Below are positions 3,437-23,492 of a stretch of 27,099 nucleotides of DNA, piece by piece. Each line of letters begins with the position of its first letter. Within the stretch, counting starts at the first letter, position 1. The position numbers and the translations under genes are program-made. The stretch is taken from positions 1 to 27,099 of IMG/VR virus record IMGVR_UViG_3300021197_000644. The stretch is one strand, 5' to 3'. The notes under the pieces were generated by a model. It searched no databases. It was not told the origin of the DNA and saw nothing but the letters and a program-made list of their open reading frames with translations. The stretch comes from a virus.

Positions 3437-6400
3437 ATGCCAACACAAACCTTTCAATATTTCGTTCCAGTAGGTTCTACTAATGTTTCTATCACTGCTG
3501 CAATGTTTGGGGCTGGTGGTGTGACTCTAGACACACTAGCATTAACACAAGCAGTATCAACGGGATACATAACTCCTACTGGTTCTCTTACCATGCTAAA
3601 GGCACTGATTGATTCTAAATCAGATGGTCAGGTTCTTGATTTATATACTGGTCATTATAGTTTGATGGGAACAACTCAAGCAGCAGCATATGGATTTAGT
3701 GCAGACTTTGGTCCAGGCGTTGGTGATTGGAATGGAATTGATGTTTATAATTCAATCACAATAAAGAATGGTACGGTTTCTTTCTATGAATTGCACCAGC
3801 CCGCTACAGGATCAGCAGCAGGCACATTCACAGTTCCAAACACTACTCAAGAAGATTTCATTCAGATGTTTGATCCTGATTCTACACAGGAAGCAATACG
3901 TCTGGCAACATATCCTCCACAATTCGGTGATCGTGTGACTACATTCAAGGTAGACGCTCGATCATTCGTCTTGGGAAGCAATGCAGCAACACCCAGCGGC
4001 ATACTTAGTGTTACTTATGATAGTGGAACATCAAGATATTATAATAGTGGTTTTACTGTCACTGGTGTTACCCTAGTAAATGATATAAAGACCATGCTTA
4101 ATAGTGTTGTCTCCGCAGAATCATCATACTCAGGAAGAACTGCGGCAGCAACTGGTATTGGTTTAGTAATGAATATTAATCCAAATGCAATACAAGTAGT
4201 TACAGTATCAGATTACAGTGAAGGACTCAGTGGAAGTGATCCCATAATAGGAATCACGTTTGCTGGTGGTACTAGTTCTTGGCCATCTAGGAGTAGTGAT
4301 TCCTTTTACATTAATGAACTAAACTTCTTCGGTAGATATTCATTCGGTACTACGGGTGCTAGTGGAACATATTACACATATGATAGTAATACAGTTACAT
4401 ACAAACCATTATCTGGCACTTGTAAGAATCTTTATCTGCCAAGAGTTTCAGATCAGGCAGGTCATGGTCTAAAGTTTCATTCAAATGGTTTAAACCTAAT
4501 AGATGGTGTAACATTTATTGGTGCAGGTAAATATGATGCGACTCACGCGGGTAATATGTTCTACGACGTTGCACGGGCGGGTTCTATCCTTAGATTGCGA
4601 AATGTAAACACTTTCATGGGTAGTGGAGTATATAATACTCAGACAAATGGAACATGGTTTGATGCAGAAGATTGTAGGTTTATTGCTCCTGCTATGAGAG
4701 CAGTCACCACTGCTACTGAAGATAGAATAACAATCAACAGATGTGAATTTATAAACGGATTATATACCAACAGTGCGATCGGTAGACTCAATTCAGATCG
4801 TGGCCCCCATGCGTTCTATAATGGTATGCCTGAGTGTAGAATTACCAATTCTGTTTTTGACTTTGACTCAAACCACGGACAAGCAATTTCTGCATACGCA
4901 GGTAGTTTTATAAACACCACAATCACTGGCAATATCTTCCGTAACCTGCCAAGACCTGTCTCTCTTCAATGGTCCACCAACTTAGAAGCAAATGTAATAA
5001 ACCAATTAGAAGATTATCCCGGATATGAATTCTCAAACAATCTAGTATATGTCGATCAGTTACCAGCCAAAGCAGCAACAGGACAGTCCGGCCTTGCTTA
5101 CAATGGACAGGCGCCGCAATCGATTGCTTTTAAACTTCAGGGTGTAATTCCAGGCGGACCAACACTTGATGGAATCTATGGCATCACAGGTGCATTTGCT
5201 GTTGATGATAATTCTACAAAATACTATATCAGATTATCCGCTGATCAACTACCCCGTGTTAAAGTACCTATGATAAAGTATGGATATCGTATCCTAGATG
5301 GTGTTGGTTACTTAATAGGCACTATTGATAGATGGGATAATGTAAATAATCAGGAAAATTATCTCACTTCTACTTTTGAAATACTAGGTAGAACAGGGCC
5401 GACTGGTTCTGAATTCAATGGAGCAATAGAAATATATCTTGGTGCTTCTGGTTCAACATCAGATACCATTACTGGCGGCATAACCTGTGGCGAAACTCTA
5501 TTAATGAGAAACATACCACCGATTACACTCAAAAATAATACAATAGTACTGAGTAGAGATCTCATAGAAAACGAGGGGTCAACAGGACACTATGTATCCA
5601 ACACGGTAAATTTAACATTCGGTGGTGGAAGTAGTGGTCTTGCTGCGGGTGTGGCAAGTGCAGGGCCGATGGAATTCAGAAACAACATAATTTACGCGAC
5701 AGGCAATCTACAAACAACAAAGCGAGTAGGTTTGTCTGGTGGATATGATATCACCACTGGTGCTACATTAGATATTGGTGCTAATGGTGTGTATAAAGGC
5801 ACTATTAGTATACAGAATGGAAGAAGTATAGTAAGTGAGAACGTATTCTTTGAATACGCTTGGAATGCTGAAGGTTTCGTGGATGGATATAGTGGTGGTG
5901 CAGATATACAGAGAAAGAACTGTCTATCAAAGTCTCTGGGATCTACTTTAGATAATGTATATAATGGCGGCCTTTTAACAAACAGGAGTGATCAATTATC
6001 AGCATTTGATAAAGTATTTACATGGAATGGCGGAACAGGTACAGTATCACCTAATGCTGGATATTCTGGTATCGGTCTGAACTGGAGTCAGTATCCAAAA
6101 TGGGAAGACATTAAAAACTTAGGATATACATTCTCGGATGTTTATAATCCTCTTGGTGTTCCCGTAACGCCTGGATCTGGTTACAATGTTGAATTTAAAA
6201 ATGATTACACTTGGGGTGTTACTTTCTTTGGACAGACAATAAATAAAGGTTATCACACACGAACAGGAACTACTCTCGGCGAGAAAAATACACAAACAGG
6301 TATTGCCGATCTCTTTGCCAGTCGATCTAATCCTACACTACACTTAGGACAACCCGACGTATATAATATGGATTCTTCTGGGTTTACTCTAGACGCATAC

Positions 6401-8380
6401 TCTTTCCATGCCGGCGGCGTGAGGAGAGTAGTGGTTCAGGTAGATCGTGGTGCTGCTTCAGAGATGACATATACGGGCAATTTGGGTGGTTACACTGGAA
6501 CTGGATACTACCAACACTACTTTGATCCCACAGGATTTAGTGCAGGAACTACACATGAAGTTCGCGTAACATCAATTCCTACCAACGGTATAACCAGAAC
6601 TAAACAAATGCTACTCTCATATGTTAGTGGAGAGAATAAGGTAACGATTGGTACAACACAAGGAATTAGTGCTGGTTGGGATGCCATACGATCTACTTGG
6701 GATCCTCGCAAGAGAAATATAATTGAACTTGGTGTGAGTGGTGATTACATTATGGGCGAAAATCCCATAACCACTGAAATATATCCTTATGGTTGGGTTG
6801 AAGTTATACCAGCAGCAGGTGTTTCTGCGTCAATAAATTTATCAAGATTCCTTTCGGGTACTACCACAGATAATCCTAATTGGGTGGAAAACAGGCCTTG
6901 GATGCATCAAATGAAGTTTAAAAACATCACATTCACAAGTATGATTCAGCAAGGTATGACACAGACTAATGCCGGTGTGAATTTAGAAGATGCTGCATTC
7001 ACAACTAGATGGTGGATAGATGGATGTACTTTACAGAGTAACTGGTATAGTGGAACTTCGGGTGCAACAGCCTACTGGGCCTTCCCCAACGAGACGCCAG
7101 TTATTGGTGTAAGTAATATGTTCCGTAACGCATATTATCAGAGATTATATTTTACTAATAGTTTTGGATCAGAAAATCAGGGTCAAATGTGTGGTGCTGT
7201 GTTAGTCAGAGGATGTACTCAGGATTTAAATTTCCAAGATTCGTACACAAATACAATGGCATTAATTGATTCATCTTCAACCAGAAAATTAACTCCGGTC
7301 GCCACCAACCTACATGCAGATCATTGGCAACTATTTAATGGATTGAGCGGACCTTTCACAAACAACGATGGTGTAACCTTCGCTCACCCAAGCGTATCAG
7401 CAACAGGTCCCGTGGCCGTTGTGATGAATTTTTTGTTGTATAACTATTATGGTTTTGATTATGCTCCAGCAGGATTTACTCTATCAATGGTACAACCTTT
7501 TGGATTTTTTGGTACGCGGAGTGAGTATTATAAGGATGTCGCTCATATTATAGGTAAATGGGGTGCGGGGGAGACTTCATCCTCGGGAGCAAACGCAAGC
7601 GCCTCAATCGCTGTAAGATATGATCATGTAATGTTGTTAGGAATTACATTAGACACTAATCGCGTGCTTGATTTTAGAGCCAATTCCGTGGGAGATATAA
7701 CCAAACAATTTGGCCCTGTTCTGATGCAGGGTGTAAGTGCGTTAAATATTACTAATGGTAATCAAAATCTTCTTAATCCTGATAATCAGCCTGGAACTAT
7801 AAATCAGTTCAAAGCAATAGAACCAATAACACCTGATGTTATATTCAGTGGTCCTGCTACAGATGATAGTTTACTGGTAACACAATACCAATGGCACATA
7901 CCAGGCGCCTCTATGGCAAATCGTTCCTTTGATAACTTCTATACCCAACATTCGAGTTCGTCCTCAACCCTTAATTGGGGTATAACTGCTCAAAACGGGC
8001 CAGGTGTAAGTGGATCTCCAATCAAGACAATCGTGGCATTAGGTGGATGTGGTGACACTTGGAACAACGATGCGAGATTTGCCTATAGTAACACCAGCAG
8101 CGGCAATGTTAGTAGTATATCATTAACCCATTTTGGTGCTGGTGAGACCGCCGAAGCAAACGCATGGATCGATTTGGCTGGAGAATCAGGATGGTGGTTC
8201 AGAATAACCACCGATGAAGGATTCATGTATAATAGTACTAAACTAAAGAAGAGAGAAGAGAATAACATAATTGATATCAGTGGGTGGAATGCTCTTCAGT
8301 TTGGTGGTATAACAATGTCGCCTGCCGGTATTACTGGTTCATCAACAGGTGTGACGTTTGAAATAAGGAGAATGACATGA
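3437..8380 (+). CDS. Giant beta-helix tail fibre or tailspike (first of two)
   Basis: A 1647-residue protein, very rich in Gly, Ser, Thr and Asn. Residues 13-32 (GSTNVSITAAMFGAGGVTLD) match the second giant protein at 18555-23492 almost exactly, so this is likely a shared attachment or assembly module. Beyond residue about 330 there are repeated strand-turn patterns such as LRNVNTF, DAEDCRFIAP, INRCEFIN, ITNSVFDF and TTITGNIFRN. These are typical of right-handed parallel beta-helix proteins, including phage tailspikes that bind or cut surface polysaccharide. A similar pattern returns around residues 1160-1280. No catalytic residues can be assigned by eye. The gene follows the Ig/cupredoxin gene and overlaps the next gene by ATGA (8377-8380). 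It probably recognises the host surface. Nearly equal length to its partner (1647 versus 1645) is striking. Confidence 0.75.
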   Translation: MPTQTFQYFVPVGSTNVSITAAMFGAGGVTLDTLALTQAVSTGYITPTGSLTMLKALIDSKSDGQVLDLYTGHYSLMGTTQAAAYGFSADFGPGVGDWNGIDVYNSITIKNGTVSFYELHQPATGSAAGTFTVPNTTQEDFIQMFDPDSTQEAIRLATYPPQFGDRVTTFKVDARSFVLGSNAATPSGILSVTYDSGTSRYYNSGFTVTGVTLVNDIKTMLNSVVSAESSYSGRTAAATGIGLVMNINPNAIQVVTVSDYSEGLSGSDPIIGITFAGGTSSWPSRSSDSFYINELNFFGRYSFGTTGASGTYYTYDSNTVTYKPLSGTCKNLYLPRVSDQAGHGLKFHSNGLNLIDGVTFIGAGKYDATHAGNMFYDVARAGSILRLRNVNTFMGSGVYNTQTNGTWFDAEDCRFIAPAMRAVTTATEDRITINRCEFINGLYTNSAIGRLNSDRGPHAFYNGMPECRITNSVFDFDSNHGQAISAYAGSFINTTITGNIFRNLPRPVSLQWSTNLEANVINQLEDYPGYEFSNNLVYVDQLPAKAATGQSGLAYNGQAPQSIAFKLQGVIPGGPTLDGIYGITGAFAVDDNSTKYYIRLSADQLPRVKVPMIKYGYRILDGVGYLIGTIDRWDNVNNQENYLTSTFEILGRTGPTGSEFNGAIEIYLGASGSTSDTITGGITCGETLLMRNIPPITLKNNTIVLSRDLIENEGSTGHYVSNTVNLTFGGGSSGLAAGVASAGPMEFRNNIIYATGNLQTTKRVGLSGGYDITTGATLDIGANGVYKGTISIQNGRSIVSENVFFEYAWNAEGFVDGYSGGADIQRKNCLSKSLGSTLDNVYNGGLLTNRSDQLSAFDKVFTWNGGTGTVSPNAGYSGIGLNWSQYPKWEDIKNLGYTFSDVYNPLGVPVTPGSGYNVEFKNDYTWGVTFFGQTINKGYHTRTGTTLGEKNTQTGIADLFASRSNPTLHLGQPDVYNMDSSGFTLDAYSFHAGGVRRVVVQVDRGAASEMTYTGNLGGYTGTGYYQHYFDPTGFSAGTTHEVRVTSIPTNGITRTKQMLLSYVSGENKVTIGTTQGISAGWDAIRSTWDPRKRNIIELGVSGDYIMGENPITTEIYPYGWVEVIPAAGVSASINLSRFLSGTTTDNPNWVENRPWMHQMKFKNITFTSMIQQGMTQTNAGVNLEDAAFTTRWWIDGCTLQSNWYSGTSGATAYWAFPNETPVIGVSNMFRNAYYQRLYFTNSFGSENQGQMCGAVLVRGCTQDLNFQDSYTNTMALIDSSSTRKLTPVATNLHADHWQLFNGLSGPFTNNDGVTFAHPSVSATGPVAVVMNFLLYNYYGFDYAPAGFTLSMVQPFGFFGTRSEYYKDVAHIIGKWGAGETSSSGANASASIAVRYDHVMLLGITLDTNRVLDFRANSVGDITKQFGPVLMQGVSALNITNGNQNLLNPDNQPGTINQFKAIEPITPDVIFSGPATDDSLLVTQYQWHIPGASMANRSFDNFYTQHSSSSSTLNWGITAQNGPGVSGSPIKTIVALGGCGDTWNNDARFAYSNTSSGNVSSISLTHFGAGETAEANAWIDLAGESGWWFRITTDEGFMYNSTKLKKREENNIIDISGWNALQFGGITMSPAGITGSSTGVTFEIRRMT
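3473..3533 (+). repeat. Left copy of an inverted repeat shared by the two giant fibre genes
   Basis: This 61-base block matches the reverse complement of 23381-23441 at about 54 of 61 positions. It includes 26 identical bases in a row (3500-3525 against 23389-23414). It encodes the shared N-terminal module of both giant proteins. Confidence 0.9.
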
Positions 8381-8547
8381 TATCATTCAAACAATATATA
8401 ATAGAGGTCTCCCCACCAGGCTTCAAAGGTACAGTCAAGGCGATGAAGAAGCATAAAGAGATTGACAATCCATATGCTTTGGCATGGTACATGAAGAACA
8501 AGGGCTATAAGTCAAACTACGATGCTGATGGAAAGAAGAAGAAATGA
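8377..8547 (+). CDS. Small basic protein with capsid-targeting-like leader
   Basis: A 56-residue gene with AAGGAG (8365-8370) six bases before its ATG. The ATG overlaps the stop of the fibre gene and its own stop overlaps the next ATG. The first ten residues, MISFKQYIIE, match in length and pattern the capsid-targeting leader of T4 internal proteins (MKTYQEFIAE), which is cut after (L/I)-x-E by the prohead protease. The remainder (GFKGTVKAMKKHKEIDNPYA, then LAWYMKNKGYKS) is lysine-rich and resembles short modules seen in marine T4-like phage proteins. If cleaved, it would leave a 46-residue basic protein that could be packed with DNA. Packaging and cleavage are inference; the gene itself is well supported by its ribosome site and overlaps. 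Confidence 0.75.
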   Translation: MISFKQYIIEVSPPGFKGTVKAMKKHKEIDNPYALAWYMKNKGYKSNYDADGKKKK

Positions 8548-9980
8548 AAGCGTTCAAACAATATCTCGGCGAGAAGATTGACCGTGATTCCTTTCGGAAA
8601 CACTGGAAAAAGGCACCCATTCTGACTACGGGTGGTGGCGACTTGAAGAAACGTGCTGCTTTCTGGAACTCATACTTCAAACACTTTGAAAACAAATATG
8701 GAGAGATTCCAAATCGCATCAAGAATGCCATGCAAATGGCAGACATGAAACCCAATCCAACTATCACATACAAGGGACGAAAGTTCTCCATGCGGACTGG
8801 CATGGATGAGATGGATCTTCTGTATCATGTGCTGAACGAAAGTGTAACAGATCTACATGAAGCCCGTTTAGTGAATGTCAAGGGTTGGGCAAATGGTCAG
8901 AAGAGAAAACTTGTCCTATGGAAACCCAAGTCTAGTCATGACATCAGACCATACCATACTCAACATCTAACAAACAATCCAAAAGACTATGGTCTGAAGG
9001 AAGAGGACTTTCTGAAAGTCTTGGCGAGATCCTATGGGTTTGATCCCGAGGACATGGAGACACTCCGTGCGTTGGATGGTATTAAGTCTGGTAAATATGA
9101 TCGTGATAAAGACATCGACAACTTCATGTACGGTCAAGGATGGGCCCGCATTGTGTTGAATGATGGAATAGGTTCTATCGAAGGACCAATCAAGGCGAAT
9201 CTACACTCCGCTGCGAAACTCATCGCAAAGAAGTATACATGGTCGCAGATTGACTTCATGGAAATCGGTGACGTTCTCAAGGATAACGCCGAATCGATCG
9301 GCGATGAGGACACATGGAAGAGTTATCTCAAGACAGGTAGAGTTCCAAAGCGAACCACCATTGGCTCTACAATGGCACGATTCCGCGAACACGTTGATCT
9401 ATCAGAGGCATACAAAGGTGACATGCTCATTGGGTGGGTGGACCCCAAGAACAAACTAATCCTGCACCCCGAGGGTGGTAGGATGGGCAGGTTCCACACT
9501 CAGGTTCTCACCAACAAGATGTCGGCAGAAGAGTTCCGCAAGTTCCAGCCAGACAGAATCGGTGTGGGTATCGCAAAGGATATGGTCAAGTTCGTGAAGA
9601 GTGGTGACATGACCGAAGCACAACTCAAGCACATCATTGACAAGTCATACGAAAACATCTATAATGCACTCAAGACAGGTAGGTCTGATGGTGACTATGA
9701 TACTGAGTTGAATCTAGAGAAAGCAGGATGGGTCAAGGTCCGCATTGATAGAAAACCCAATGGTCGTTCTTCTGTTCTTGGTGATCTCGATCGATGCCAA
9801 GCAGCAGCGAAAGTGATTGACAAGAAACTCGGTGGTTGGCAGGGTATCAACACCGATCAGTTCTGGGTCAGAGACGGCGGTACAATGGTTGCAGATGAGA
9901 AAACATGGGACACATACGTCAAGACAGGTCGAGTGCCAAAGCGAACTGATATTGGTAGAACAATGTCACAGTTTAGATAA
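8544..9980 (+). CDS. Duplicated-domain protein with capsid-targeting-like leader
   Basis: A 478-residue protein that starts by ATGA overlap with the small basic gene. The leader MKAFKQYLGE again has ten residues ending L-x-E. Further L-x-E sites occur at residues 97-99 and 104-106 (LNE, LHE), just before ARLVNVKGW, so processing could free a mature chain beginning near residue 107. The rest consists of two related halves. PYHTQHLTN (136-144) pairs with RFHTQVLTN (316-324), and TWKSYLKTGRVPKRTTIG (from 257) pairs with TWDTYVKTGRVPKRTDIG (from 454). I recognise no catalytic motif or named domain. It is likely a head-internal or core protein of the phage, with function unknown. A long stem terminator follows. 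Confidence 0.7.
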   Translation: MKAFKQYLGEKIDRDSFRKHWKKAPILTTGGGDLKKRAAFWNSYFKHFENKYGEIPNRIKNAMQMADMKPNPTITYKGRKFSMRTGMDEMDLLYHVLNESVTDLHEARLVNVKGWANGQKRKLVLWKPKSSHDIRPYHTQHLTNNPKDYGLKEEDFLKVLARSYGFDPEDMETLRALDGIKSGKYDRDKDIDNFMYGQGWARIVLNDGIGSIEGPIKANLHSAAKLIAKKYTWSQIDFMEIGDVLKDNAESIGDEDTWKSYLKTGRVPKRTTIGSTMARFREHVDLSEAYKGDMLIGWVDPKNKLILHPEGGRMGRFHTQVLTNKMSAEEFRKFQPDRIGVGIAKDMVKFVKSGDMTEAQLKHIIDKSYENIYNALKTGRSDGDYDTELNLEKAGWVKVRIDRKPNGRSSVLGDLDRCQAAAKVIDKKLGGWQGINTDQFWVRDGGTMVADEKTWDTYVKTGRVPKRTDIGRTMSQFR

Positions 9981-9982
9981 AC

Positions 9983-10078
9983 CCTCAGACTGGCACTATG
10001 GCAGGTAGAGTGTTTTTGATAGCATTCCCATACGCCTATTCTCTGCGCCCCACGGAGAGTGTCAGTCTGAGGTTTTTT
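9983..10078 (+). terminator. Long-stem terminator or structured RNA
   Basis: A 15-bp stem with one G-U pair (9983-9997 with 10058-10072) encloses about 60 bases and is followed by six Ts. Ordinary terminators have loops of 3-8 bases, so the enclosed segment probably folds further or is a small RNA. No tRNA T-loop signature (GTTCRA) is present. It ends transcription of the fibre operon. Confidence 0.65.
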
Positions 10079-10083
10079 GTTTA

Positions 10084-10091
10084 TATACATA
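10084..10091 (+). promoter_or_regulatory. Putative phage late promoter (TATACATA)
   Basis: TATACATA directly follows a terminator T run and lies 30 bases before the next start codon. The arrangement is the same as at 1632: terminator, octamer, ribosome site, gene. Confidence 0.55.
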
Positions 10092-10121
10092 CTTTACTTG
10101 GAATCAATTAGGAGTCCTATA

Positions 10122-10742
10122 ATGGAAATCACACGCAAAGTAACTGAACAAGATCTACAGGAGCGTTCCGATCACGAAGAGCGAGAACTTCATCTATATG
10201 CTGATAACCACGCTGATCTACATAGACAGCGTACTTCTATGGTTCACAAGAACCTTCGTAACAAAATGGCAAGTGGTAAGTATGACAGCAACAAGGCACA
10301 CCGTGCCTTCGTTCACGTTGCCAAGGATGCTGCGGATCGTTACGACAAGGCTCACTCCTCACCAGGCACGAAAACCTTCAGCAAGGATCACATTCATAAC
10401 GTCGCCAAGAAGATGAGAGATCAGTTTGAAGACGAAGCAAAGGATGGTCATCACGATGGCCTTCTCCACAAGAAGTATCAGAAGACTAAGAAAGAAGACG
10501 TAGAACTAGACAACGATGCCCTCGTTGAAACAGTAGAACTAACTCAATATGAAGCATTGGCAATGAGAATCATCGAAGATCGAGAAGAAAAGTATCTTGA
10601 TGATCTCATTGAAGCAGAGATCGCAGAAGAGGAAGTTGAAGTAGAACTAGACGAAGATGCCGTAATCGAGAAGATGATTGAAGCAGGATACAGTGACGAA
10701 GAAATCGCAGAAGCGATTGAAGACTTATCAAAAACTGAATAA
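10122..10742 (+). CDS. Conserved-type phage protein of unknown function, acidic C-terminus
   Basis: A 206-residue protein. The start is set by AGGAG (10110-10114), seven bases before ATG; an upstream in-frame ATG at 10077 lies inside the terminator tail and late promoter. Residues 20-120 are charged and helical (LYADNHADLHRQRTSMVHKN, GKYDSNKAHRAFVHVAKDAA). They recall a segment common in marine T4-like phage hypothetical proteins (N-x-x-LYRQ, KNL, G-x-YD-x-x-KA). From residue 123 the chain becomes strongly acidic (EAEIAEEEVEVELDEDAV), ending in a UBA-like helical pattern IEAGYSDEEIAEAIEDL. No enzyme motif is seen. A head core or scaffold role is possible, because such proteins are often acidic and helical, but this is a guess. 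Confidence 0.65.
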   Translation: MEITRKVTEQDLQERSDHEERELHLYADNHADLHRQRTSMVHKNLRNKMASGKYDSNKAHRAFVHVAKDAADRYDKAHSSPGTKTFSKDHIHNVAKKMRDQFEDEAKDGHHDGLLHKKYQKTKKEDVELDNDALVETVELTQYEALAMRIIEDREEKYLDDLIEAEIAEEEVEVELDEDAVIEKMIEAGYSDEEIAEAIEDLSKTE

Positions 10743-10775
10743 GTATACGAAAATATAATATATGTTGTGAATGCG

Positions 10776-10800
10776 GGAGGGCTTCGGCCCTCCTAATTTC
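10776..10800 (+). terminator. Terminator hairpin with UUCG tetraloop
   Basis: A GGAGGGC/GCCCTCC stem (10776-10782 with 10787-10793) closes a very stable TTCG loop. The T tract after it is poor (TAATTTC), so termination may be partial, or the hairpin may protect the 3' end. Confidence 0.7.
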
Positions 10801-10803
10801 ATA

Positions 10804-10811
10804 TATAAATA
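10804..10811 (+). promoter_or_regulatory. Phage late promoter with perfect T4 consensus (TATAAATA)
   Basis: This is a perfect TATAAATA, 19 bases before the next start codon and just after a terminator hairpin. It gives a short leader with AAGGAG at 10819-10824. Confidence 0.7.
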
Positions 10812-10830
10812 TAGTAACAAGGAGAAAGTT

Positions 10831-11481
10831 ATGCAACCAGGTCCATTTAATAAAAACATACAGAATCAAGATTTTTACAATAGTATCGCTGACATTGTAT
10901 CTAAGATCAATGTTGATATAGAGCAAGCAAAAATTGATAATAGTCCTATCTCCGAACTAAAGATGCCTGCAAAGGACGCAAAGGGTAACATCAAGAGCCG
11001 CAAGGTTCGTGGTGCATATGCTAAGGGTGCAGACAAGGCACAAGCCGCAGGTGATAAAGCAATGGATAAGGCTACCGACATAAAGTCTGATATTGACGAT
11101 ACAATCAAGAACATCGACAAGTCTCTCGACGCAGAAGACAGACGAGACGATCGGAAGCGAAAGGCTCGTAAGGAAGAAGTCGAGCATGTCGAAGAGGCAG
11201 TCACCACAACCTTGAAGTTTAAGAAGGATGCCGATGGTGCAGCAGCAGTCGGATCTGAAACAGGAAGAACTGGACTTCTACACAGTGGAAAGAAAGTCAA
11301 ACCCGGTGAGTATAAACTGACATTCAAGAACGATCGGCATATGATGAAGTTCATGGACAAGCACGCCGATCGTGTCGCAGAAGATACCGAGGTCGAAGAA
11401 GGCAAGTTAGTGGATCGTATTATGCGAAAGCGTAAGCAAATGAAAAACAAGGGGACTATCCCCGGATCGGATGGTTATTGA
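10831..11481 (+). CDS. Charged phage protein of unknown function
   Basis: A 216-residue protein with AAGGAG six bases before the ATG and a consensus late promoter upstream. Residues 45-120 are rich in Lys, Asp and Ala with heptad-like helices (KGADKAQAAGDKAMDKAT, SDIDDTIKNIDKSL), suggesting a coiled coil. The following stretch is acidic (KEEVEHVEEAV) and then passes into a more folded-looking C-terminal part (TLKFKKDADGAAAVG, MMKFMDKHADRV). I recognise no family. Position among head-core-like genes and promoter type suggest a late structural or core protein. The open frame from 10771 is rejected because it starts inside the terminator. Confidence 0.65.
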   Translation: MQPGPFNKNIQNQDFYNSIADIVSKINVDIEQAKIDNSPISELKMPAKDAKGNIKSRKVRGAYAKGADKAQAAGDKAMDKATDIKSDIDDTIKNIDKSLDAEDRRDDRKRKARKEEVEHVEEAVTTTLKFKKDADGAAAVGSETGRTGLLHSGKKVKPGEYKLTFKNDRHMMKFMDKHADRVAEDTEVEEGKLVDRIMRKRKQMKNKGTIPGSDGY

Positions 11482-11482
11482 A

Positions 11483-11677
11483 ATGGATATGAGAAACTTC
11501 TTTGGTTGGGTTCAAGGAGTCAGGTCAAATGGTGTTGGTAAAGACAACTATCAGGCTGCTCAGAATATGAATGGCGAAATGTCAGACAAAGGCTGGCGAC
11601 CTGAGGCTAAAAGCGTCGGAGATGTGTATCTAAAGATGCAAGGTTTAGATAAACCAGTTGACAAATCTACAGAATAA
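11483..11677 (+). CDS. Small protein of unknown function
   Basis: About 64 residues (MDMRNFFGWVQGVRSNGVGK, later KSVGDVYLKMQGLDKPVDKS). The start is uncertain: ATG codons at 11471, 11483 and 11489 are in frame and none has a clear ribosome site. 11483 is chosen because it begins one base after the previous stop, which suits coupled translation. The last codons overlap the sigma70-type promoter of the next gene. No domain is recognised; reading-frame context and tight spacing are the main support. Confidence 0.55.
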   Translation: MDMRNFFGWVQGVRSNGVGKDNYQAAQNMNGEMSDKGWRPEAKSVGDVYLKMQGLDKPVDKSTE

Positions 11678-11685: not shown

Positions 11686-11691
11686 ATTTAC

Positions 11692-14843: not shown

Positions 14844-14846
14844 GTT

Positions 14847-15226: not shown

Positions 15227-15249
15227 AAAAACCCCGAAAACCTTTGACA

Positions 15250-15257
15250 TATACATA
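15250..15257 (+). promoter_or_regulatory. Putative late promoter (TATACATA)
   Basis: TATACATA lies 26 bases before ATG 15284, with AAGGA at 15271-15275. It is expected to drive the conserved block 15284-17245 and perhaps the lysis genes beyond it. Confidence 0.6.
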
Positions 15258-15283
15258 TAGAGGTTAATTTAAGGAACAATCTA

Positions 15284-15925
15284 ATGAGATACAAAGAACT
15301 GCTTAGCCTTTTAGAGAGTGAATACGACGTAGAAGTCGGGGGTGCCTCTGGCGTCCTAAGAACTGCACAGAGTGACTTCGGTACATTCCGTGTTGAGAAT
15401 GCTGCCATGATTACAAGAATAAATGCCTTTATTCACAACTATCTAAAGGAAGCATGTCTCGATCCCAAGCAAACCGTTTTTGGTCTTCGACAGAAGTTAA
15501 ACCAAGTTGGTCTTGACTTTGAGTTTTCAAATAAAAACAATGTCACTGAAGGTGCCATGGATCTCAAGTTGACTCGCTTCGGTGGTATCTTCGGCAAGAG
15601 TGACACAACTCCATTCGACGAGTTCGATAACGAAGATGGTCTTGAGAAGTCAATCGGTCATGGACTCACTCTTAAACTAGAAACTACCATCAACGAGAGA
15701 GGTCTATACAAGATGGAAGGTAAGGTTGTTCCCACCATCTCCGAGACTTCAGAAGAGGTTGAGGTAGAAGAAGCAATAGTTGGTCGGACCAAGCCAAAGG
15801 ACGCAAAACACTCTACCATGCGTAAAGACTACGATGGTGATGGTAAGGTAGAGTCTGGAACTGACGAGTGGAAGGGTTCTAGGGATAAGGCCATCAAGAA
15901 GGCAATGGCTGCAAGAAAAAGGTGA
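15284..15925 (+). CDS. Conserved-type T4-like phage protein with EF-hand-like loop
   Basis: A 213-residue protein with AAGGA eight bases before the ATG. The text SDFGTFRVENAAMITRINAF, then LDPKQTVFGLRQKLNQVGLD and LTRFGGIFGKSDTTPFDEF resembles a family conserved among marine T4-like phages, usually of unknown function. The leader MRYKELLSLLE could be a slightly longer capsid-targeting sequence ending L-L-E. Near the end, DYDGDGKVESGTDEW (182-196) has Asp at positions 1, 3 and 5 and Gly at 6 of a calcium-binding EF-hand loop, though Thr replaces the usual Glu at position 12. This tail is followed by a basic helix (KGSRDKAIKKAMAARKR). A head-core or neck role is possible; I cannot assign one. 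Confidence 0.7.
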   Translation: MRYKELLSLLESEYDVEVGGASGVLRTAQSDFGTFRVENAAMITRINAFIHNYLKEACLDPKQTVFGLRQKLNQVGLDFEFSNKNNVTEGAMDLKLTRFGGIFGKSDTTPFDEFDNEDGLEKSIGHGLTLKLETTINERGLYKMEGKVVPTISETSEEVEVEEAIVGRTKPKDAKHSTMRKDYDGDGKVESGTDEWKGSRDKAIKKAMAARKR

Positions 15926-15945
15926 GTTAAACCAATTTAATTATT

Positions 15946-16323
15946 ATGAATTTTCCTTTACTTGATGATGACAATTTTATGATGTATGCAATGAAGATGT
16001 ATGATAATCCTCAGTGTACCGAACTTTCTGAGTTCTATGAGGATTTGAATAGAATTAAATATATCAAGAGGTTACTCGGAAGATATCATACGAAGGGAAA
16101 TCTGAAAGATAGGTTGATACTAAATCATATTATAATTTTGGGAAATGTATTCACTCCATCGGGTACTTCTCGAATGCTCTTTCTGAAGGTAGAACCCCAT
16201 TTACACTCGTATTTAAAGACCTTTCTAGTGTTCTTGAATTATCTACCAAACAGCGTACCAGAAGTCCAATTTGAAGACATTCCATTCGACGGAAAAATAA
16301 TACGGATTCTTAGAGAGAGTTAA
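15946..16323 (+). CDS. Conserved-type T4-like phage protein, unknown function
   Basis: A 125-residue protein. The text LLDDDNFMMYAMKMYDNPQC, then EFYEDLNRIKYIKRLLGRY and LKDRLILNHIIILGNVF strongly recalls a small protein found across cyanophage and pelagiphage T4-like genomes and annotated there as hypothetical. It is mostly helical and has no obvious catalytic motif. No good ribosome site is seen near ATG 15946, so it may be translated by coupling with the upstream gene, 20 bases away. The stop is followed one base later by the next ATG. The order with its neighbours also matches what I remember of those phages. Confidence 0.7.
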   Translation: MNFPLLDDDNFMMYAMKMYDNPQCTELSEFYEDLNRIKYIKRLLGRYHTKGNLKDRLILNHIIILGNVFTPSGTSRMLFLKVEPHLHSYLKTFLVFLNYLPNSVPEVQFEDIPFDGKIIRILRES

Positions 16324-16324
16324 A

Positions 16325-17245
16325 ATGAATAGACTAGTAAACGCCTTTGTCATCTACCAATTCATTCGCCTACTGATCAAGCCATTTGATAAAACAGATG
16401 CCTTCAAGTTGGGAATCATCGATAAGGATGGTAACTACTTAAAGAAGCAAGGCGACCTCAAAACAACAGAAGAGAAGAAGGCAAGTAACATCTTCACTCG
16501 TCTTGTCTGGAACATCAAGAAAATCTTAATGAAGGTTCCTCTAGTCAGAAGTAAACTTGGTACGTTTGCAACTGCTCTATATCTTGTAAGAGAACAAGCC
16601 GAATATATTGGCGCCGATGGTGATGACATTGAAGAAATTCTAGTTGAGTATTTCAAAACTACTCACCCCGCAATTATTGATGAAATCTTTTCTATGGACT
16701 TCACCGAAGAGAGTAAAGGTTATATCATTGAAGGACTAGAACTTGAACCTATTGGTTCTTTTATGAATGTGCCAATGTATAGATTAAATGAAACTGTTGT
16801 TTCTGCTATTGATCTTAACGAAATTCTAAATGTTGCTGGTGGTAACATCGGTGGAGCAGAAGTTCCTAACCCATCACCAAACATCAAGGGTTATAGTAAA
16901 CCTTTGATGAAGGGTGTTGAAGGTATCACATACGGAACTCCAATCAGCAAAACTGCTCTTCACAGAAGAGACAATCCTATGTTGGTTGGTGGTAAGAAAA
17001 TGTCTTTCAAAGAGGGTCGTGATATGTTCTTGGGCAAGAAGATATATGAAATGGATAATGGCGACTATTACAAATGTATCAATGGTCGAAAGAAGTATGA
17101 GCGATGGTCTAATAAGATCAACGCTGAAGAGATTGAACACATTGAACTCAAACGACATATTCAAAAGTTTGGGGAAGCGATTATTAAGAATAAGATGACA
17201 GGTGAAATGTGCTTCTTTAAGAATGTCGATATTCAGGAGGATTGA
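16325..17245 (+). CDS. Conserved-type T4-like phage protein, unknown function
   Basis: A 306-residue protein. The N-terminus MNRLVNAFVIYQFIRLLIKP, then FDKTDAFKLGIIDKDGNYL and LKTTEEKKASNIFTRLVWNI, matches from memory a protein conserved in marine T4-like phages and always next to the 125-residue protein. A middle region has GSFMNVPMYRLNE and VPNPSPNIKG, and the C-terminal part is rich in charged residues (YYKCINGRKKYERW, EDGE-like acidic strands). No catalytic site is evident. It begins one base after the previous stop and ends inside the ribosome-binding region of the holin-like gene, so this is one transcript. A virion or head-assembly role is plausible but unproven. Confidence 0.7.
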   Translation: MNRLVNAFVIYQFIRLLIKPFDKTDAFKLGIIDKDGNYLKKQGDLKTTEEKKASNIFTRLVWNIKKILMKVPLVRSKLGTFATALYLVREQAEYIGADGDDIEEILVEYFKTTHPAIIDEIFSMDFTEESKGYIIEGLELEPIGSFMNVPMYRLNETVVSAIDLNEILNVAGGNIGGAEVPNPSPNIKGYSKPLMKGVEGITYGTPISKTALHRRDNPMLVGGKKMSFKEGRDMFLGKKIYEMDNGDYYKCINGRKKYERWSNKINAEEIEHIELKRHIQKFGEAIIKNKMTGEMCFFKNVDIQED

Positions 17246-17247
17246 TT

Positions 17248-17700
17248 ATGTTGGAAACCTTCCTAACCACCGAGTTTCTTTCACTCATAGGTGGTAGCGT
17301 AGCAGGCTTTATTTTTAAGAGCCTTGCGGAGAAACGCCAAGATGAAAAAGAAAGATTCGAGAGAACAATTCAACTCATCGACAAAAAGAAAGAAGTCGCT
17401 GATGCCGCCGTTAAGAGAGTGCCACTCGAAGCAGGTAAGGTTGTCAGGCGGACTATCGTGCTATGCATACTCTTTGGAACGATCATCGCCCCATTCATAC
17501 TGCCTTTCTTTTCCATACCAACAGTAGTAGAATTAGAAGAAAGTCGGTACGCACCCCTTGACTTCTTCGGACTTTTCGGTAAGAATACTTATATCTCGTT
17601 TCAAACTATTAACGGGTATCTGTTCACAACAGAAAACAGGCAGATTCTCGTCACAATCGTCGGTTTTTACTTCGGACAAGCATCCGCGAGAGTTAAATAG
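17248..17700 (+). CDS. Three-span holin-like membrane protein
   Basis: A 150-residue protein. AGGAGG at 17235-17240 sits seven bases before ATG 17248 and decides this start over TTG 17242. Membrane segments are at about 8-27 (TEFLSLIGGSVAGFIFKSL), 69-91 (RTIVLCILFGTIIAPFILPF) and 131-146 (RQILVTIVGFYFGQAS). A charged helix at 28-60 lies between the first two. The layout and the closing GFYFG recall the 3TM holin family found in phages and gene transfer agents. Holins form the inner-membrane lesion that times lysis. It is followed by a lipobox protein, which strengthens a lysis-module reading. No endolysin is visible nearby. The alternative is a non-holin membrane protein. Confidence 0.6.
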   Translation: MLETFLTTEFLSLIGGSVAGFIFKSLAEKRQDEKERFERTIQLIDKKKEVADAAVKRVPLEAGKVVRRTIVLCILFGTIIAPFILPFFSIPTVVELEESRYAPLDFFGLFGKNTYISFQTINGYLFTTENRQILVTIVGFYFGQASARVK

Positions 17701-17702
17701 GG

Positions 17703-17710
17703 TTTAAATA
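17703..17710 (+). promoter_or_regulatory. Weak late promoter candidate (TTTAAATA)
   Basis: TTTAAATA lies 11 bases before ATG 17722 and is one base from TATAAATA. It could give the lipobox gene a short separate transcript. Confidence 0.25.
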
Positions 17711-17721
17711 AAGGTTAAATT

Positions 17722-17982
17722 ATGATCAGACGAATGTTACACCATTTTACTATTCAAATCGCTCTATGGAGTGTTCTCGTCCCTCTCACGGGATGTGCAG
17801 GTAATCAGGTACTTTTAGGTAAAAACGACGACAAAACAAGGGAACCTATCCCTTCTCCTGCCGTAATTGCAGATCACGAGTCGTGGTATCCCGCAGCAGG
17901 CTTCACTATTTGGTTGGTTTTGATTACTGCCTTGGCAGGATTTTGGTGGTGGTCAGGAAGACGATCCCATAGTTCTAAATAG
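17722..17982 (+). CDS. Lipobox protein with C-terminal membrane segment (u-spanin-like)
   Basis: An 86-residue protein. The N-terminus is a lipoprotein signal peptide: RR, then a hydrophobic run, then the lipobox LTGC with Cys25 as the acylated residue. After about 30 polar residues there is a membrane helix (about 60-77, GFTIWLVLITALAGFWWW) and a basic tail RRSHSS. A lipid anchor in the outer membrane plus a C-terminal inner-membrane helix is the plan of a unimolecular spanin, which fuses the two membranes at the end of lysis. The linker here is short compared with phage T1 gp11, so the call is tentative. It follows the holin-like gene by 21 bases. Its last 30 bases overlap the convergent RuvC-like gene. 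Confidence 0.6.
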   Translation: MIRRMLHHFTIQIALWSVLVPLTGCAGNQVLLGKNDDKTREPIPSPAVIADHESWYPAAGFTIWLVLITALAGFWWWSGRRSHSSK

Positions 17983-18522
17983 GTACTTACAGATATAATA
18001 TGAATCTACAATATCACCAACAGGCGATCCAATCGCCTTTTTGTTTGGTGTCATTATTCTTTTGATATCAACGCCAGTTTCCATGAAGAATGATTTGTAC
18101 ATGTCATCTTTCGATGCGTTTCCCTTACCAGTGGCTAATTTCTTTATTGTGGTTGGTGGAACTATCTCAAGAGGCTTTCCAGCCTTCCATAACTTATATT
18201 TTAATACACCTGTATTTTCAGCAATCTGAAATACACGCCCAGTAGCATTAAAGGCATAACCTTCGAGTGCTATCTGATCGCAAGCAAGAGTCTTCTCTTC
18301 GGCCCAATCAGCAATAGATTCATATCTTTGCTCTTGTGTGTCCCAGTCAATGAAACCTTGTCCAAATATATTAGATCTATATGTTCTGGCATGACGCTTC
18401 GTTTCCGTTAGGAAGTAGAAACTACAACCACCAAACTTAAAGTCGTCAGTGTCATTATACGACGCAAATACGCAAATTGCTGGACAAGTCAGAGAATAAT
18501 CTATACCCGCAATAATCTTCAT
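17953..18522 (-). CDS. RuvC-like Holliday-junction resolvase family protein
   Basis: A 189-residue protein. Acidic residues expected of the RNase H fold RuvC family are in order: Asp8 in IAGIDYSLT, Glu87 in IALEGYAF, and Asp170 and Asp173 in SPVGDIVDSYYICKY. The loop LATGKGNASKDDM (129-141) matches the family's TGKGNA/SK signature. Such enzymes cut branched DNA made by phage recombination and replication before packaging. The start at 18522 is preferred over 18549, because a CATAAATA promoter lies between them; transcription would begin at the start codon. The 3' end overlaps the convergent lipobox gene by 30 bases, so the two messages can pair. Confidence 0.8.
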   Translation of the reverse strand: MKIIAGIDYSLTCPAICVFASYNDTDDFKFGGCSFYFLTETKRHARTYRSNIFGQGFIDWDTQEQRYESIADWAEEKTLACDQIALEGYAFNATGRVFQIAENTGVLKYKLWKAGKPLEIVPPTTIKKLATGKGNASKDDMYKSFFMETGVDIKRIMTPNKKAIGSPVGDIVDSYYICKYLFRTMGSSS

Positions 18523-18527
18523 ACAAG

Positions 18528-18535
18528 TATTTATG
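18528..18535 (-). promoter_or_regulatory. Putative late promoter (CATAAATA) with leaderless start
   Basis: The minus strand reads CATAAATA, then five bases, then ATG at 18522. With +1 about six bases past the octamer, the transcript would start at the A of the ATG. Confidence 0.45.
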
Positions 18536-18554
18536 CGGGCATTAACCACTCACA

Positions 18555-21500
18555 TTAGTTCTCTTCTATCTTATACTTTGGAGTGGCACCAAATCTAGCA
18601 TATAAATCGGTCCAGTTATTATCCCATGTAGTACCAGTGGTTTCGTTGCTGCCTCTAACAAAAACAGTGTCTTGGTTCCATTGTTCCCAACCACCAGTCC
18701 AACCATATGTGTATGTTACACCTGCGGTAGATACTATTTCCAATGTTACTCCGGGATTTGCTGTTTGGAAGTTATTCTTATCCAATGTAGTACCAAATGT
18801 AAGTTGAAGTCCCCTATTTGATGCGGTGAGTGGTTGCAATGATATCTTAGACATATTTGCACCAGTAATACCAGTGGCAATTTGACTAGTTCTTGGTGCG
18901 AATGTATTCACGAATGAACCACTTGAATCTGTTCTATAAAAGGAATTGTCAGTATCAGCAGCAAAAATTCCATACTCGGGCGCGGGATACACATACACAT
19001 TAGACCAAGTTATTCCTGCACCATATCCTTCTGTTGTTACACCATTGAGGTAGGAACTAATATCATTCGTATTAATAACATTAACATAACTATGAACCTG
19101 ATCTAGATCAGCGACTTGGTATGCAAAGGATACAGTATCGGTAGTTATTCCGTTAACGTAGAAGTGATCGAATGATGCACCATCATATAAGTTTTCATTT
19201 CTATCGTACTGTACGTTTAGTGCTGATGGGCTTTGCGGTATTCCACCCAATGATATGTTATTCAAACCAATATGATGCCAATATCCAGCAAACTGAATCC
19301 AGTTATTCGTAGTATAACTAGTTACCCTTGTAACGCTGTCTCTTATGAATATGTAATTGTTGTCTGTGTATGTCGCAAAGCCATTTTTAGGTGCGGATCG
19401 GTCAAACAATATGGTTTGTAATTGAGTATCGCCTGTTCCTCCACCTGAATTTTCAACTAGATGGCCACCATAGTAGAAGTTCTGGTGTTGAAATGTATCA
19501 TGACTTTCAGGATTACCCCACCATTGATGCAGATCAACGTGTGTATATGATGAACCATAAGTATCTGCTGCATGTCGGTATGGTTTAACATTTGTTGCGT
19601 AGTTGTTTATTGAACACAAAGCACCAGTCGCTATATCGACTCTTAGTCCAGACATACGACAATCACGCATTAAAGAACACCATGAGTGGCCGGGTGTACT
19701 AAGATTAACAAAGTTACAATCAACATATCCTCGCCACGGTTGATTATCCGCAGACCCACCGTCCCAGTTCTGTTCTATTCTCGTTCGTTTTAAAGGCGCC
19801 CCAGCAGTACCATCATCATTCAATGACTGAGCATCACCACCTACAAGAGTTGTATAACTTTCAAGTGTAAATCCTCTTATGTTACCTGTTGTAACTCCTA
19901 AACTCTGGTTAGAGTTATATGCAATATTTAATGTTGCACCCGCGACGTATGTACCACTGACGCCTGTGCCTTGCTTTTGTCCGTATACATTAAACTGACC
20001 AAAACTAACACCAGCACTAGTACCAGTTATCCATTCGTTTATCGAATTACCTGTTCCATAAACATCACCTATCTGTATTCCAAGATAACCAAAGTTTGTT
20101 GATGTAGTTGGTGCAGAATCACCAGTAGGTCCACCATTTCCTTGATAGACGTATTCACCAGCAACAATACTGGCAATATCAGCACTTGACCCTAGAATAG
20201 TCGCACGAATGCCGGGAGGTCTTTGTATGTTTGTGTAGTCTGTATCATTATACCTACTCTCAAAGGTACAACCATCAAAGAGTAAATTAGCGTATTTTTC
20301 TTGGTAGTAGTTACCACCAATATAACTATCAGAACTAGAACCAATAAGACAATTCTTATATCGAATGTAGGTTAGGTTAGTTCTAACATCATTCGTCATG
20401 CCTTCCATACCACTCCAATATACTGAATTTCCTCCAGTGGGCGCCACTGTGATCCAAGATCTTCTTGAAGTATTTTCTGTAGTTGATTTCGCAAGACCCT
20501 GAAGATTCCATACATTATTCAAGGTGCAATTGTAGTTGACATGAATCTCGTCGAGTGTAAGTCCAGAAAGTGTATACCCACCATCAAGTGCGGCCGCGAA
20601 CTCAGCATCATTTGCTACTGTTACAATATTGAGAGAAGGACGTTGAAGAATCTTAATTGTTTGTGTGTCTGTAGCATTTCTTCTGAGTGTAAATGTATTC
20701 ATCGAATCAGGAACTAATTCAATTTCCTTTCTATACACAAAGGAAGAGGTAGTTCCCTTATCAGGGTACGTTAGAAACGTCTTAGTACCAACATGGGCAG
20801 TGACGCCATTGTGTATTATGGTAGGAGCCGTAGTTAAGTATTCTGCTGGATTAACATTCTCTCCCACATAGTCAATAATATATGTGGATGCCGTAGTTAC
20901 CATACCAGAAGGAATGGCAAAGCGAGCCACATCGATATCTGCAACCGAAGCCCCAGGCCCGATTATAGAATCAATCAAACCACCAGTCGCGGCCGTTAAT
21001 GACCAACTATCACTGGTTGGATTAAACGATGCAGAAATTCCACTAGCACTGAGAGTTAGTCCTGTACCACTCCAATTGACAGGCATACCAGTTGTAGATC
21101 CTGTTCCTTCATAATTTCTTGTAGTATCGATTGCGTCTACAAGATACTCTTGACTGAGTGTGAGTCCTGCATAGTCAATAAGTTGAAGACCGTTATAGTC
21201 ACCACTTGCAAATACTCTTAGTTTGATTGCTTCTTTATATCCAAGAGGAGTATCGTTTAATTCGTATGCACCTATCTCCCGACTCGCAGGCCTTATTGTG
21301 CCACCGATACTATATGGTAGTCCCTTGGTTGTAGATTTTCCTATAGAGGAATAACCCACACCATATCTGTTGATGTTTCCACCTGCACCTTGATCACCGA
21401 CATTATCAAAGTAGTTACTTGAGAGTTGAGTTGATCCATGCGTCGTCGCTCCTGGCATAAGTTGCCAAGCACTATACGCAGAATTCCTCACATCTACTAG

Positions 21501-23492
21501 ACCAGTAAATGTTACTCCTCCAACATCAGTGCCTATCTGTTTGAACACAGATGAGTCCGCAATAAATCTTATTGGTTGGATGAAGTCCGAGGCTCCGTTT
21601 CTGAAACTAAAAGATAGAGTAGTTGGGAAACTACAATACTTGAGAGCCATCCTCCTCGGCCCATTTTTTATTTGTGCCAGAAGACCCATTCTAGGTCTGG
21701 TATATTGCTCAAAGGAACAATTACTAAACACTACGTTATCAATTCCAAGAGTAGGGCCGCCCTGAAAGAGCATCGGTTGCTCATCTTGGTATATACGATA
21801 GTCTTGTACAAGAATGTTATCCATCGTGAGTCCTGTGATTTCCGTGGCTCCTCCGACTTGGAAACCATCTGGGTGTGCCCAGATTGCCATAAACAATTCA
21901 GTACCTACTGGTAGTTCATTGGTATAATCTATGTCCCTGAATACTATCTTCTTATCAGCAGTAGCAGAAGTTCCCCATAACTGTGTTTGCTTGTATTGAG
22001 AATATAGACGTTTGCGGTTGACTACACTATGTTCCTCACCCGACTTCCAGTATCCACAAAGGAAGTCAGATCGTTGCATATACCGATCACTAGGATCTAC
22101 ACCGCCTGCTGTTGATAAGTTTGTTGGCCAACTGAATGTCCTTCCGGCACTGGCACCCGACACTACATTAATAATCGTCTCACCACTTGCACCCAAGGTA
22201 GAACCCGTAACTACAAGGTAATCCTCTGTTGATGTGGAAGTTTGAAAGAGAGCCTTATCTCCGCCAATAGATTCCATCTTATTGATGGTCATTCCTGTTT
22301 CAAGAACAGAGAGTCCTGCACTTGATCCGTTTTGAAGAAACGACCACGACAAATACATGGGATCGAATGAACAATTGGCCGTTACGTTCATATACTCACA
22401 AGCACCACCAGCAACCATAGAATTCAAGTGAGTATTGTGAACTTCGTGCCTTGCTACTCTATTGCCATTAGTGGAGTAGTCATAGAAACTAGTTTGGGTA
22501 AGTTCATGAGACTTAATACCATATGTTCTTCCCCCATCTTCTTCATTCCACCAACTATCAGTGATAGTGCAATTGTTATATCCAGAATACTCTCCGTTGA
22601 TGGTGATAGTCGGCTGTGAGTTCTTTAGATCAAGGGTCACGCCCTCCCATACAACATGCTCAATTCGTAATTCAGGTCTGTTGTAATTGCTCCACGTTCC
22701 AGCACTATATGTACCTTCTCTACTCTGTGTTATACCCCCATCAACCCTGTATGGTGAAATCACAACATCACTTGTATTACCTGCTTTGGCCTGAACCTCA
22801 TTCCAAAAACCATTCGTAGTACCAAGCCCACCTTGTTTGAAGGTATAATTACCTCCACGAAGTTTCAATATTCTGTTGTCTTCATATGTACCACCACTCG
22901 AATAACCAATAAGACCAGAGATATCTGCATTCTCATCAAGATCCTCGGGGCCTTTCTCTAGCACAACAGGAACAACACATCTTATGTCTTTATTAATGAT
23001 ACGACTATTCCCATTAACGGGAACTAGTTTTGCGTAGACTGTTGTGGTTCCATTTGAAGTCACGCCGGCGGGGAAGAACATGTCAAAGTTATAACCCTGA
23101 ACACCAACAGCATTTTTCGATATAGTAGATGAAGATGCACTTGAACCATGACACCAGACTTCAACATGATCTATACCTGCGGGATCAACCACATCTGCCG
23201 CCACCATGAAGTTTTGTGTGGTGCCTGGTGAATACAGACGAGAGAGCATATGCAATCGTCCAACCGCTGTATCACCATAGTCTATGCCGTGAGTCGAATT
23301 AGATGGTGCAGTATTTGCCAGAGCAAAGTTTGGAGTGACGATCGGTGCTGTAATACCAACCGAAGCCGCAGTCGTCTCTATGTCTAGTGTCACACCACCA
23401 GCCCCAAACATTGCCGCAGTGATTGAAACACTGGTTGAGCCAGGAGCGATATAAAACTGATAACTTGCAGTCGGGTGATAGAGAATAGGCAT
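18555..23492 (-). CDS. Giant beta-helix tail fibre or tailspike (second of two)
   Basis: A 1645-residue protein, the same size as the fibre at 3437 but on the opposite strand. Residues about 18-37 (GSTSVSITAAMFGAGGVTLD) match that protein at 19 of 20 positions, and the DNA there is also nearly identical; downstream the two differ. The chain is rich in Gly, Ser, Thr and Asn with beta-helix-like strand runs (MTINKMESIGG, ITGLTMDNILVQDY, IDNVVFSNCSFEQY, ALKYCSFPTTL, YANLLFDGCTFES). It is probably a second host-recognition fibre or spike using the same attachment module. The C-terminus (TYTYGWTGGWEQWN, then WTDLYARFGATPKYK) may be a receptor or trimer tip. The start has only a weak GGGG ribosome site 26 bases after the upstream gene's stop. 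Confidence 0.75.
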   Translation of the reverse strand: MPILYHPTASYQFYIAPGSTSVSITAAMFGAGGVTLDIETTAASVGITAPIVTPNFALANTAPSNSTHGIDYGDTAVGRLHMLSRLYSPGTTQNFMVAADVVDPAGIDHVEVWCHGSSASSSTISKNAVGVQGYNFDMFFPAGVTSNGTTTVYAKLVPVNGNSRIINKDIRCVVPVVLEKGPEDLDENADISGLIGYSSGGTYEDNRILKLRGGNYTFKQGGLGTTNGFWNEVQAKAGNTSDVVISPYRVDGGITQSREGTYSAGTWSNYNRPELRIEHVVWEGVTLDLKNSQPTITINGEYSGYNNCTITDSWWNEEDGGRTYGIKSHELTQTSFYDYSTNGNRVARHEVHNTHLNSMVAGGACEYMNVTANCSFDPMYLSWSFLQNGSSAGLSVLETGMTINKMESIGGDKALFQTSTSTEDYLVVTGSTLGASGETIINVVSGASAGRTFSWPTNLSTAGGVDPSDRYMQRSDFLCGYWKSGEEHSVVNRKRLYSQYKQTQLWGTSATADKKIVFRDIDYTNELPVGTELFMAIWAHPDGFQVGGATEITGLTMDNILVQDYRIYQDEQPMLFQGGPTLGIDNVVFSNCSFEQYTRPRMGLLAQIKNGPRRMALKYCSFPTTLSFSFRNGASDFIQPIRFIADSSVFKQIGTDVGGVTFTGLVDVRNSAYSAWQLMPGATTHGSTQLSSNYFDNVGDQGAGGNINRYGVGYSSIGKSTTKGLPYSIGGTIRPASREIGAYELNDTPLGYKEAIKLRVFASGDYNGLQLIDYAGLTLSQEYLVDAIDTTRNYEGTGSTTGMPVNWSGTGLTLSASGISASFNPTSDSWSLTAATGGLIDSIIGPGASVADIDVARFAIPSGMVTTASTYIIDYVGENVNPAEYLTTAPTIIHNGVTAHVGTKTFLTYPDKGTTSSFVYRKEIELVPDSMNTFTLRRNATDTQTIKILQRPSLNIVTVANDAEFAAALDGGYTLSGLTLDEIHVNYNCTLNNVWNLQGLAKSTTENTSRRSWITVAPTGGNSVYWSGMEGMTNDVRTNLTYIRYKNCLIGSSSDSYIGGNYYQEKYANLLFDGCTFESRYNDTDYTNIQRPPGIRATILGSSADIASIVAGEYVYQGNGGPTGDSAPTTSTNFGYLGIQIGDVYGTGNSINEWITGTSAGVSFGQFNVYGQKQGTGVSGTYVAGATLNIAYNSNQSLGVTTGNIRGFTLESYTTLVGGDAQSLNDDGTAGAPLKRTRIEQNWDGGSADNQPWRGYVDCNFVNLSTPGHSWCSLMRDCRMSGLRVDIATGALCSINNYATNVKPYRHAADTYGSSYTHVDLHQWWGNPESHDTFQHQNFYYGGHLVENSGGGTGDTQLQTILFDRSAPKNGFATYTDNNYIFIRDSVTRVTSYTTNNWIQFAGYWHHIGLNNISLGGIPQSPSALNVQYDRNENLYDGASFDHFYVNGITTDTVSFAYQVADLDQVHSYVNVINTNDISSYLNGVTTEGYGAGITWSNVYVYPAPEYGIFAADTDNSFYRTDSSGSFVNTFAPRTSQIATGITGANMSKISLQPLTASNRGLQLTFGTTLDKNNFQTANPGVTLEIVSTAGVTYTYGWTGGWEQWNQDTVFVRGSNETTGTTWDNNWTDLYARFGATPKYKIEEN
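23381..23441 (-). repeat. Right copy of the inverted repeat shared by the giant fibre genes
   Basis: Its reverse complement matches 3473-3533 at about 54 of 61 bases, with a 26-base perfect core at 23389-23414. The two copies are in opposite orientation about 19.9 kb apart. Confidence 0.9.

Follow-up and report, generated by a model that had tools for sequence, protein, structure and literature searches.

An inverted head module shared by two giant fibre genes of an uncultured T4-like phage, and a probable 20-kb inversion between them

Invertible fibre systems served by dedicated recombinases are well known. In phages Mu (gin), P1 (cin) and p15B (min), fibre genes invert at short inverted repeats, as summarised in PMC6109161, which also describes a bifidophage Rin shufflon and an inverted locus without a recombinase, with receptor-binding-protein variation at very short repeats. 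Pelagimyophages and cyanomyophages have a hypervariable host-recognition cluster, an island with tail-fibre genes that differs among syntenic T4-like relatives (PMC7029224). In T4-related phages, mosaicism extends to the fibre genes and is ascribed to rearrangement, with inversions and recombination between marginally similar sequences invoked (PMC2993671). Further background is found in PMC3945230 and PMC8042965. Among the titles listed in searches of open-licence PMC papers, none concerns a module-mediated 20-kb inversion between T4-like fibre genes.

The window analysed here is an entire viral record of 27,099 bases, free of N, from an uncultured T4-like phage; its gene content is common to T4-like cyano- and pelagiphages at identities below 60%. 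Two giant fibre genes lie on opposite strands (Table 1), and the coordinates and near-equal lengths that the sequence-only reading had given for them are correct. The near-equality looks like a coincidence, since the module-bearing fibres of relatives have 881 aa from a conserved ATG (open frame 887 aa) and 1576 aa. A scan of viral contigs with the whole of each, and comparisons with PHROGs, Pfam, NCBIfam and PDB sequences, gave no match, and tblastn against 50,697 phage records gave none for either fibre, for the 48-aa head or for gene 8544 (genes are cited by window coordinate). Fibre 1 also matched none of six records in a search run without a positive control. AlphaFold2 returned a mean pLDDT of 36.0 for fibre 1 residues 1-670 and of 31.8 for fibre 2 residues 1-1000, too low for a usable model.

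Table 1. Features of the 27,099-base window
Feature	Position	Strand	Remarks
3' end of the gene upstream of RuvC in relatives, probable ribonucleotide reductase (named by eye)	2..235	+	left outer flank
Porin-like phage protein	257..1294	+	left outer flank; 54% identical to L026 homologue
Fibre/baseplate connector-like protein, upstream of fibre 1	1678..3405	+	phrog_677 and phrog_30742 matches
Fibre 1 = head A + body 1	3437..8380	+	ORF, 1647 aa; residues 178-615 homologous to G005 B-headed fibre
Module arm, head A	3473..3533	+	inverted repeat; perfect core 3500-3525; proposed crossover region
Conserved block (exonuclease, DUF6267, cytidyltransferase, RuvC etc.)	8375..18539	+	inverted vs relatives
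RuvC-like Holliday junction resolvase, adjoins fibre 2	17953..18549	-	phrog_159, E 1.3e-32
Fibre 2 = head B + body 2	18555..23492	-	ORF, 1645 aa; no match found for body
Module arm, head B	23381..23441	-	inverted repeat; perfect core 23389-23414; proposed crossover region
109-aa gene directly upstream of head B	23518..23847	-	right outer flank
Peptidase family gene of T4-like phages	24612..26846	-	right outer flank; phrog_459, E 4e-181

The two fibres share an N-terminal module with the motif GST-x-VSITAAMFGAGGVTLD. The earlier description of its DNA as an inverted repeat holds (61 nt, 89% identical, with a 26-nt perfect core), and it is the longest inverted repeat in the window (BLAST within the record, E 2.8e-18). 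Equally borne out is the claim that the bodies differ: past residue 60, fibres 1 and 2 are not significantly similar (Smith-Waterman z 1.8, 100 shuffles), and the bodies of fibre 1, fibre 2 and the module-bearing fibre of relative G003 are mutually unrelated or nearly so (fibre 1 vs G003, z 4.5, residues 979-1148). A constant N-terminus thus stands before unrelated bodies, across five heads and these three bodies. The module is an N-terminal piece held constant while bodies vary, and is probably the dock onto the baseplate or another fibre. A degenerate DNA pattern for the module recovered the three known loci (G001, G003 and G005) and one extra match in G006, which was judged to be chance, as the window proteins have no match in that record. 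One weak match in a scan of genome contigs, to a Solobacterium MAG, was dropped.

One line of evidence for rearrangement is gene order. The peptidase, RuvC, gene 10077 and the 109-aa gene 23518 served to find related IMG/VR contigs, and the window genes were mapped onto them, BLAST pieces below 150 nt being dropped in the comparison of block orientation. From the peptidase side, relatives read peptidase 24612, 24224, 23947, 23518, one or more fibres, 8544, 10077 and onward to 17722; convergent with this run are the porin-like gene 257, gene 1131, one or more fibres and RuvC. The window has its outer flanks in the usual places and the ~10-kb block between the fibres reversed. Block orientation was opposite to the window's in all nine informative records of 14 compared, which are not independent (G002 and L008 are near copies by look, L028 and L029 are close). 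G001, G002, G003, G005, L008 and L025 inform on the right side and G005, L026, L028 and L029 on the left; G005 covers both sides in a single 51-kb record. G004, L030, L048, L051 and L052, with the block only or one flank only, were left out of the count. The same arrangement recurs further afield, in L034 at the peptidase end and in L035 and L039 at the RuvC end; for the distant loci L033-L040, gene order was taken from these three alone. The window is the sole record with its orientation, and since informative and more distant relatives all show the opposite one, its gene order is, by sequence comparison, the derived state.

In the left flank, the product of 2..235 is 99% identical to residues 577-653 of a 653-aa L029 protein, and window DNA 1-807 is 75% identical to L026/L029. 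The peptidase gene has matches in 463 of 50,697 phage records, mostly cyanophages. In G001 and G005 a B-type head follows the 109-aa gene, which is found upstream of the block in these two and in G002, G003, L008 and L025. Both a PD-(D/E)XK nuclease and the RuvC-like resolvase are encoded inside the block. The L026 homologue of the phage-borne porin-like gene matches PF07396 (Porin_O_P), and the window copy has no Pfam match. A 34-nt promoter-like element (TTGCCT..16 nt..TATAAT) forms a perfect divergent pair at 26735-26768 (-) and 27033-27066 (+), 264 nt apart and flanking the peptidase start; the pair is kept in G002, G003, G004 and G005, three of which (G002, G004 and G005) have a further, diverged copy elsewhere. 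The proteins at 8378, 8544 and 12360 start with MxxFKQYLxE or similar, presumably resembling T4 capsid-targeting sequences. Gene 8544 carries a 76-nt direct repeat (75%; 9303-9378 and 9894-9969), and the N-terminal part of its product varies among relatives.

The limits of the reversed segment were bracketed by similarity to relatives. On the right, this similarity spans 23518, enters head B as far as 23357-23374 (G001, G005) and resumes at 18533-18539; on the left, DNA similarity to relatives ends at 1573 and resumes at 8375-8377, and fibres occupy both gaps. The module falls within both intervals, 1573-8375 on the left and, at its margin, 18539-23441 on the right, the latter extending to the module because similarity to relatives fades within it. 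No other inverted similarity linking the fibre loci comes close to the module in strength, the rest being 36 nt at 75% and 22 nt at 86% among the 25 longest listed. A breakpoint upstream of 1678 is disfavoured, since G005 and G001 share the order of 23518 followed by a B-type head. The 1678 protein may be native to the left flank, but its N-terminal similarity to the first RuvC-side fibres is weak (z 2.0-3.0) and gave no match in a profile search.

The pairing of heads and bodies also differs from that in relatives. With the first 60 residues removed, body 1 aligned with the B-headed fibre of G005 at a score of 143 (shuffles 54.5 +- 8.1; z 11.0), the single strong match among 21 body pairs, the next being fibre 1 vs G003; the phmmer E-value was 1.5e-6, compared with 0.24 for the best of 2000 shuffles. 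Directly behind VTLD the two fibres are alike in the first 60 residues (1 of 1000 shuffles as high) and not detectably alike in residues 12-145 (335 of 1000). The G005 gene lies between 23518, which it directly follows, and 8544, from which one further fibre gene separates it. Body 1 is still upstream of 8544 in the window, yet it stands behind head A, the re-pairing that an inversion through the module predicts. Body 2 matched no other fibre body in body alignments or a profile search, and fibre 2 was not significantly similar to G003 behind VTLD (77 of 1000 shuffles as high); the sequence VTLDIETT behind the core, common to fibre 2 and the G003 A head, is a weak hint of a former pairing of body 2 with head A. 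The swapping of bodies behind a constant head, proposed from the sequence alone, is therefore supported by fibre 1, a G003-type head on a G005-like body, and is unconfirmed in its body 2/head A half.

Head DNA, compared among the window's heads A and B, G003 A, G005 B and G001 B, is mosaic in the window. Upstream of the core, head A agrees with G003 A at 55/60 nt and with head B at 36/60, and head B agrees with G001 B at 53/60 and with G005 B at 43/60. Within the core, heads A and B are identical (26/26), and they match G003 A at 22/26 and G005 B/G001 B at 17-18/26; the G005 and G001 B heads read IFNLGG or IFNVGG where the window has MFGAGG. A quartet test gave the no-exchange pattern upstream of the core (13:1 with G005, 17:0 with G001) and the swapped pattern downstream (3:1 and 8:5). 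The shift is significant (two-sided Fisher p 0.019 with G005 and 0.0002 with G001) on few sites, with adjacent sites not independent, a core picked as the longest perfect run and a G001 head that is a remnant ended by a stop.

We consider it fairly probable that the window is the product of a rare, homology-driven intramolecular inversion between the inverted head modules, in which heads and bodies were re-paired. The ancestor would have had the order of the relatives, with 23518, head B plus body 1 and the run from 8544 to 17722 in one direction, converging with 1131, 1678, head A plus body 2 and RuvC in the other. Crossing over within the 26-nt core or next to it would have inverted ~19.9 kb, placing body 1 on head A and body 2 on head B, and the A-like core in head B would require conversion of the core besides the crossover. 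One crossover at the module could then account by itself for the reversed block, the mosaicism of the heads and the homology of body 1, with the module acting as a short homology for shuffling fibre genes. The route would be phage homologous recombination between inverted modules, a suggestion kept conditional because a UvsX-like recombinase (phrog_97) was matched in none of six records, all fragments.

Exchange at these loci goes beyond inversion. At the 23518 side of G003 stands a head of the A type, preceded by a leader similar to that of window head B, so heads also move by non-inversion routes. G001 retains only a remnant of a B head, ahead of another fibre, and G002, L008 and L025 lack a fibre at the 23518-side site. 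The window's gene 23518 is a mosaic too, G003-like in its first half and G005/G001-like in its second. By these sequence patterns, heads, bodies and whole cassettes are exchanged often, the inversion being one event among several. Immediately after its head, the G003 head-A fibre (L017 7699-12429, -) has a domain of the FAD-binding oxidoreductase type (PF01565, E 1.3e-12, EncM-like), which is odd in a phage fibre.

Such mobility lends some weight to an unlikely alternative, in which the block was inverted at other breakpoints, for instance at the fibre 3' ends near 8375/18540, while horizontal exchange and gene conversion replaced fibres or heads in separate events. Cassettes are replaced whole, homology stopping at 23519 in some relatives and starting at 8375-8377; three relatives have no fibre there at all, and the G003 leader and head show head movement without inversion. 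This account nevertheless needs several events instead of one, the remaining inverted repeats are far weaker and none of the 25 longest listed joins 8375 to 18540, and the fibre that body 1 resembles in G005 is on the 23518 side and not the RuvC side. An artefact is decidedly unlikely: assembly or amplification could have swapped two junctions at the module, a repeat of the type prone to false joins, and the order is seen in one record only, but two reciprocal false joins would be required in a window without N whose exact repeat is just 26 nt. An exact repeat of that length is normally shorter than a sequencing read and than the last k-mer that common assemblers use.

The sequence-only reading had offered the module DNA as an inversion site, with paralogy as the simpler account. 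The inversion survives as a past event, on the evidence of a block reversed in nine of nine records and head A with a G005-like body, and not as a switch. A programmed, reversible phase variation of fibre bodies would fit the Gin/Cin/Min-like geometry of constant heads, variable bodies and inverted repeats within coding sequence. It is nonetheless highly unlikely: serine and tyrosine recombinases (PF00239, PF00589) were each found in none of nine records, all fragments (controls positive in 10/14 and 14/14), the core is not palindromic (3/13 base pairs symmetric, counted by eye), and no relative compared has a second inverted module or a module at the RuvC side. Since there is a head at either outer flank, the two bodies would both be expressed whichever way the block lies, and on/off switching is not the outcome of this geometry. 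Of the proposed exchange of promoters, what remains is that the head, leader and promoter of each body would change, with no on/off effect expected from the layout. Plain paralogy of two fibre genes with a common, selected docking module and no inversion is scarcely credible; unrelated bodies do stand behind the same module in G003 (FAD-binding oxidoreductase-like) and the window, but by itself it leaves the inverted block (9/9) and the identical A and B cores unexplained.

If the inversion through the module is accepted, one short coding module is linked to an extensive change of gene order in a T4-like phage, and the conserved N-terminus of a fibre can serve as recombination homology that re-pairs heads and bodies without a dedicated invertase. 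A bolder version, which we regard as quite unlikely, is a recurrent, invertase-free exchange device, in which convergent loci with near-identical inverted modules let the phage's own recombination flip the 20-kb block, homogenise the cores and re-pair heads and bodies. Were such inversion recurrent, fibres would have a third way to vary, in addition to site-specific invertases and diversity-generating retroelements.

One likeness is to Mu, P1 and p15B, in which a constant fibre N-terminus receives alternative bodies via short inverted repeats in coding sequence; here, too, short inverted sites (61 nt, 89%) lie inside the fibre genes, in both heads. A dedicated recombinase was seen in none of the nine fragmentary records, and could sit elsewhere in the genome, and the core lacks the dyad symmetry of a crossover site (3/13 base pairs, by eye). 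Unlike those systems, the window has a segment of ~20 kb with conserved genes and a head at each end, so that both bodies would be expressed. The bifidophages resemble it in inversion-driven variation, one of their loci being without an adjacent recombinase; in PMC6109161 these are small prophage loci with sites of 8-11 bp, whereas the window has a 61-nt module in a T4-like phage. For the host-recognition cluster, PMC7029224 reports variation in gene content, and the window adds a specific, probable inversion with a head-body swap. Compared with the mosaicism of T4-related phages, as outlined in PMC2993671, the window ties a single event to a single defined module.
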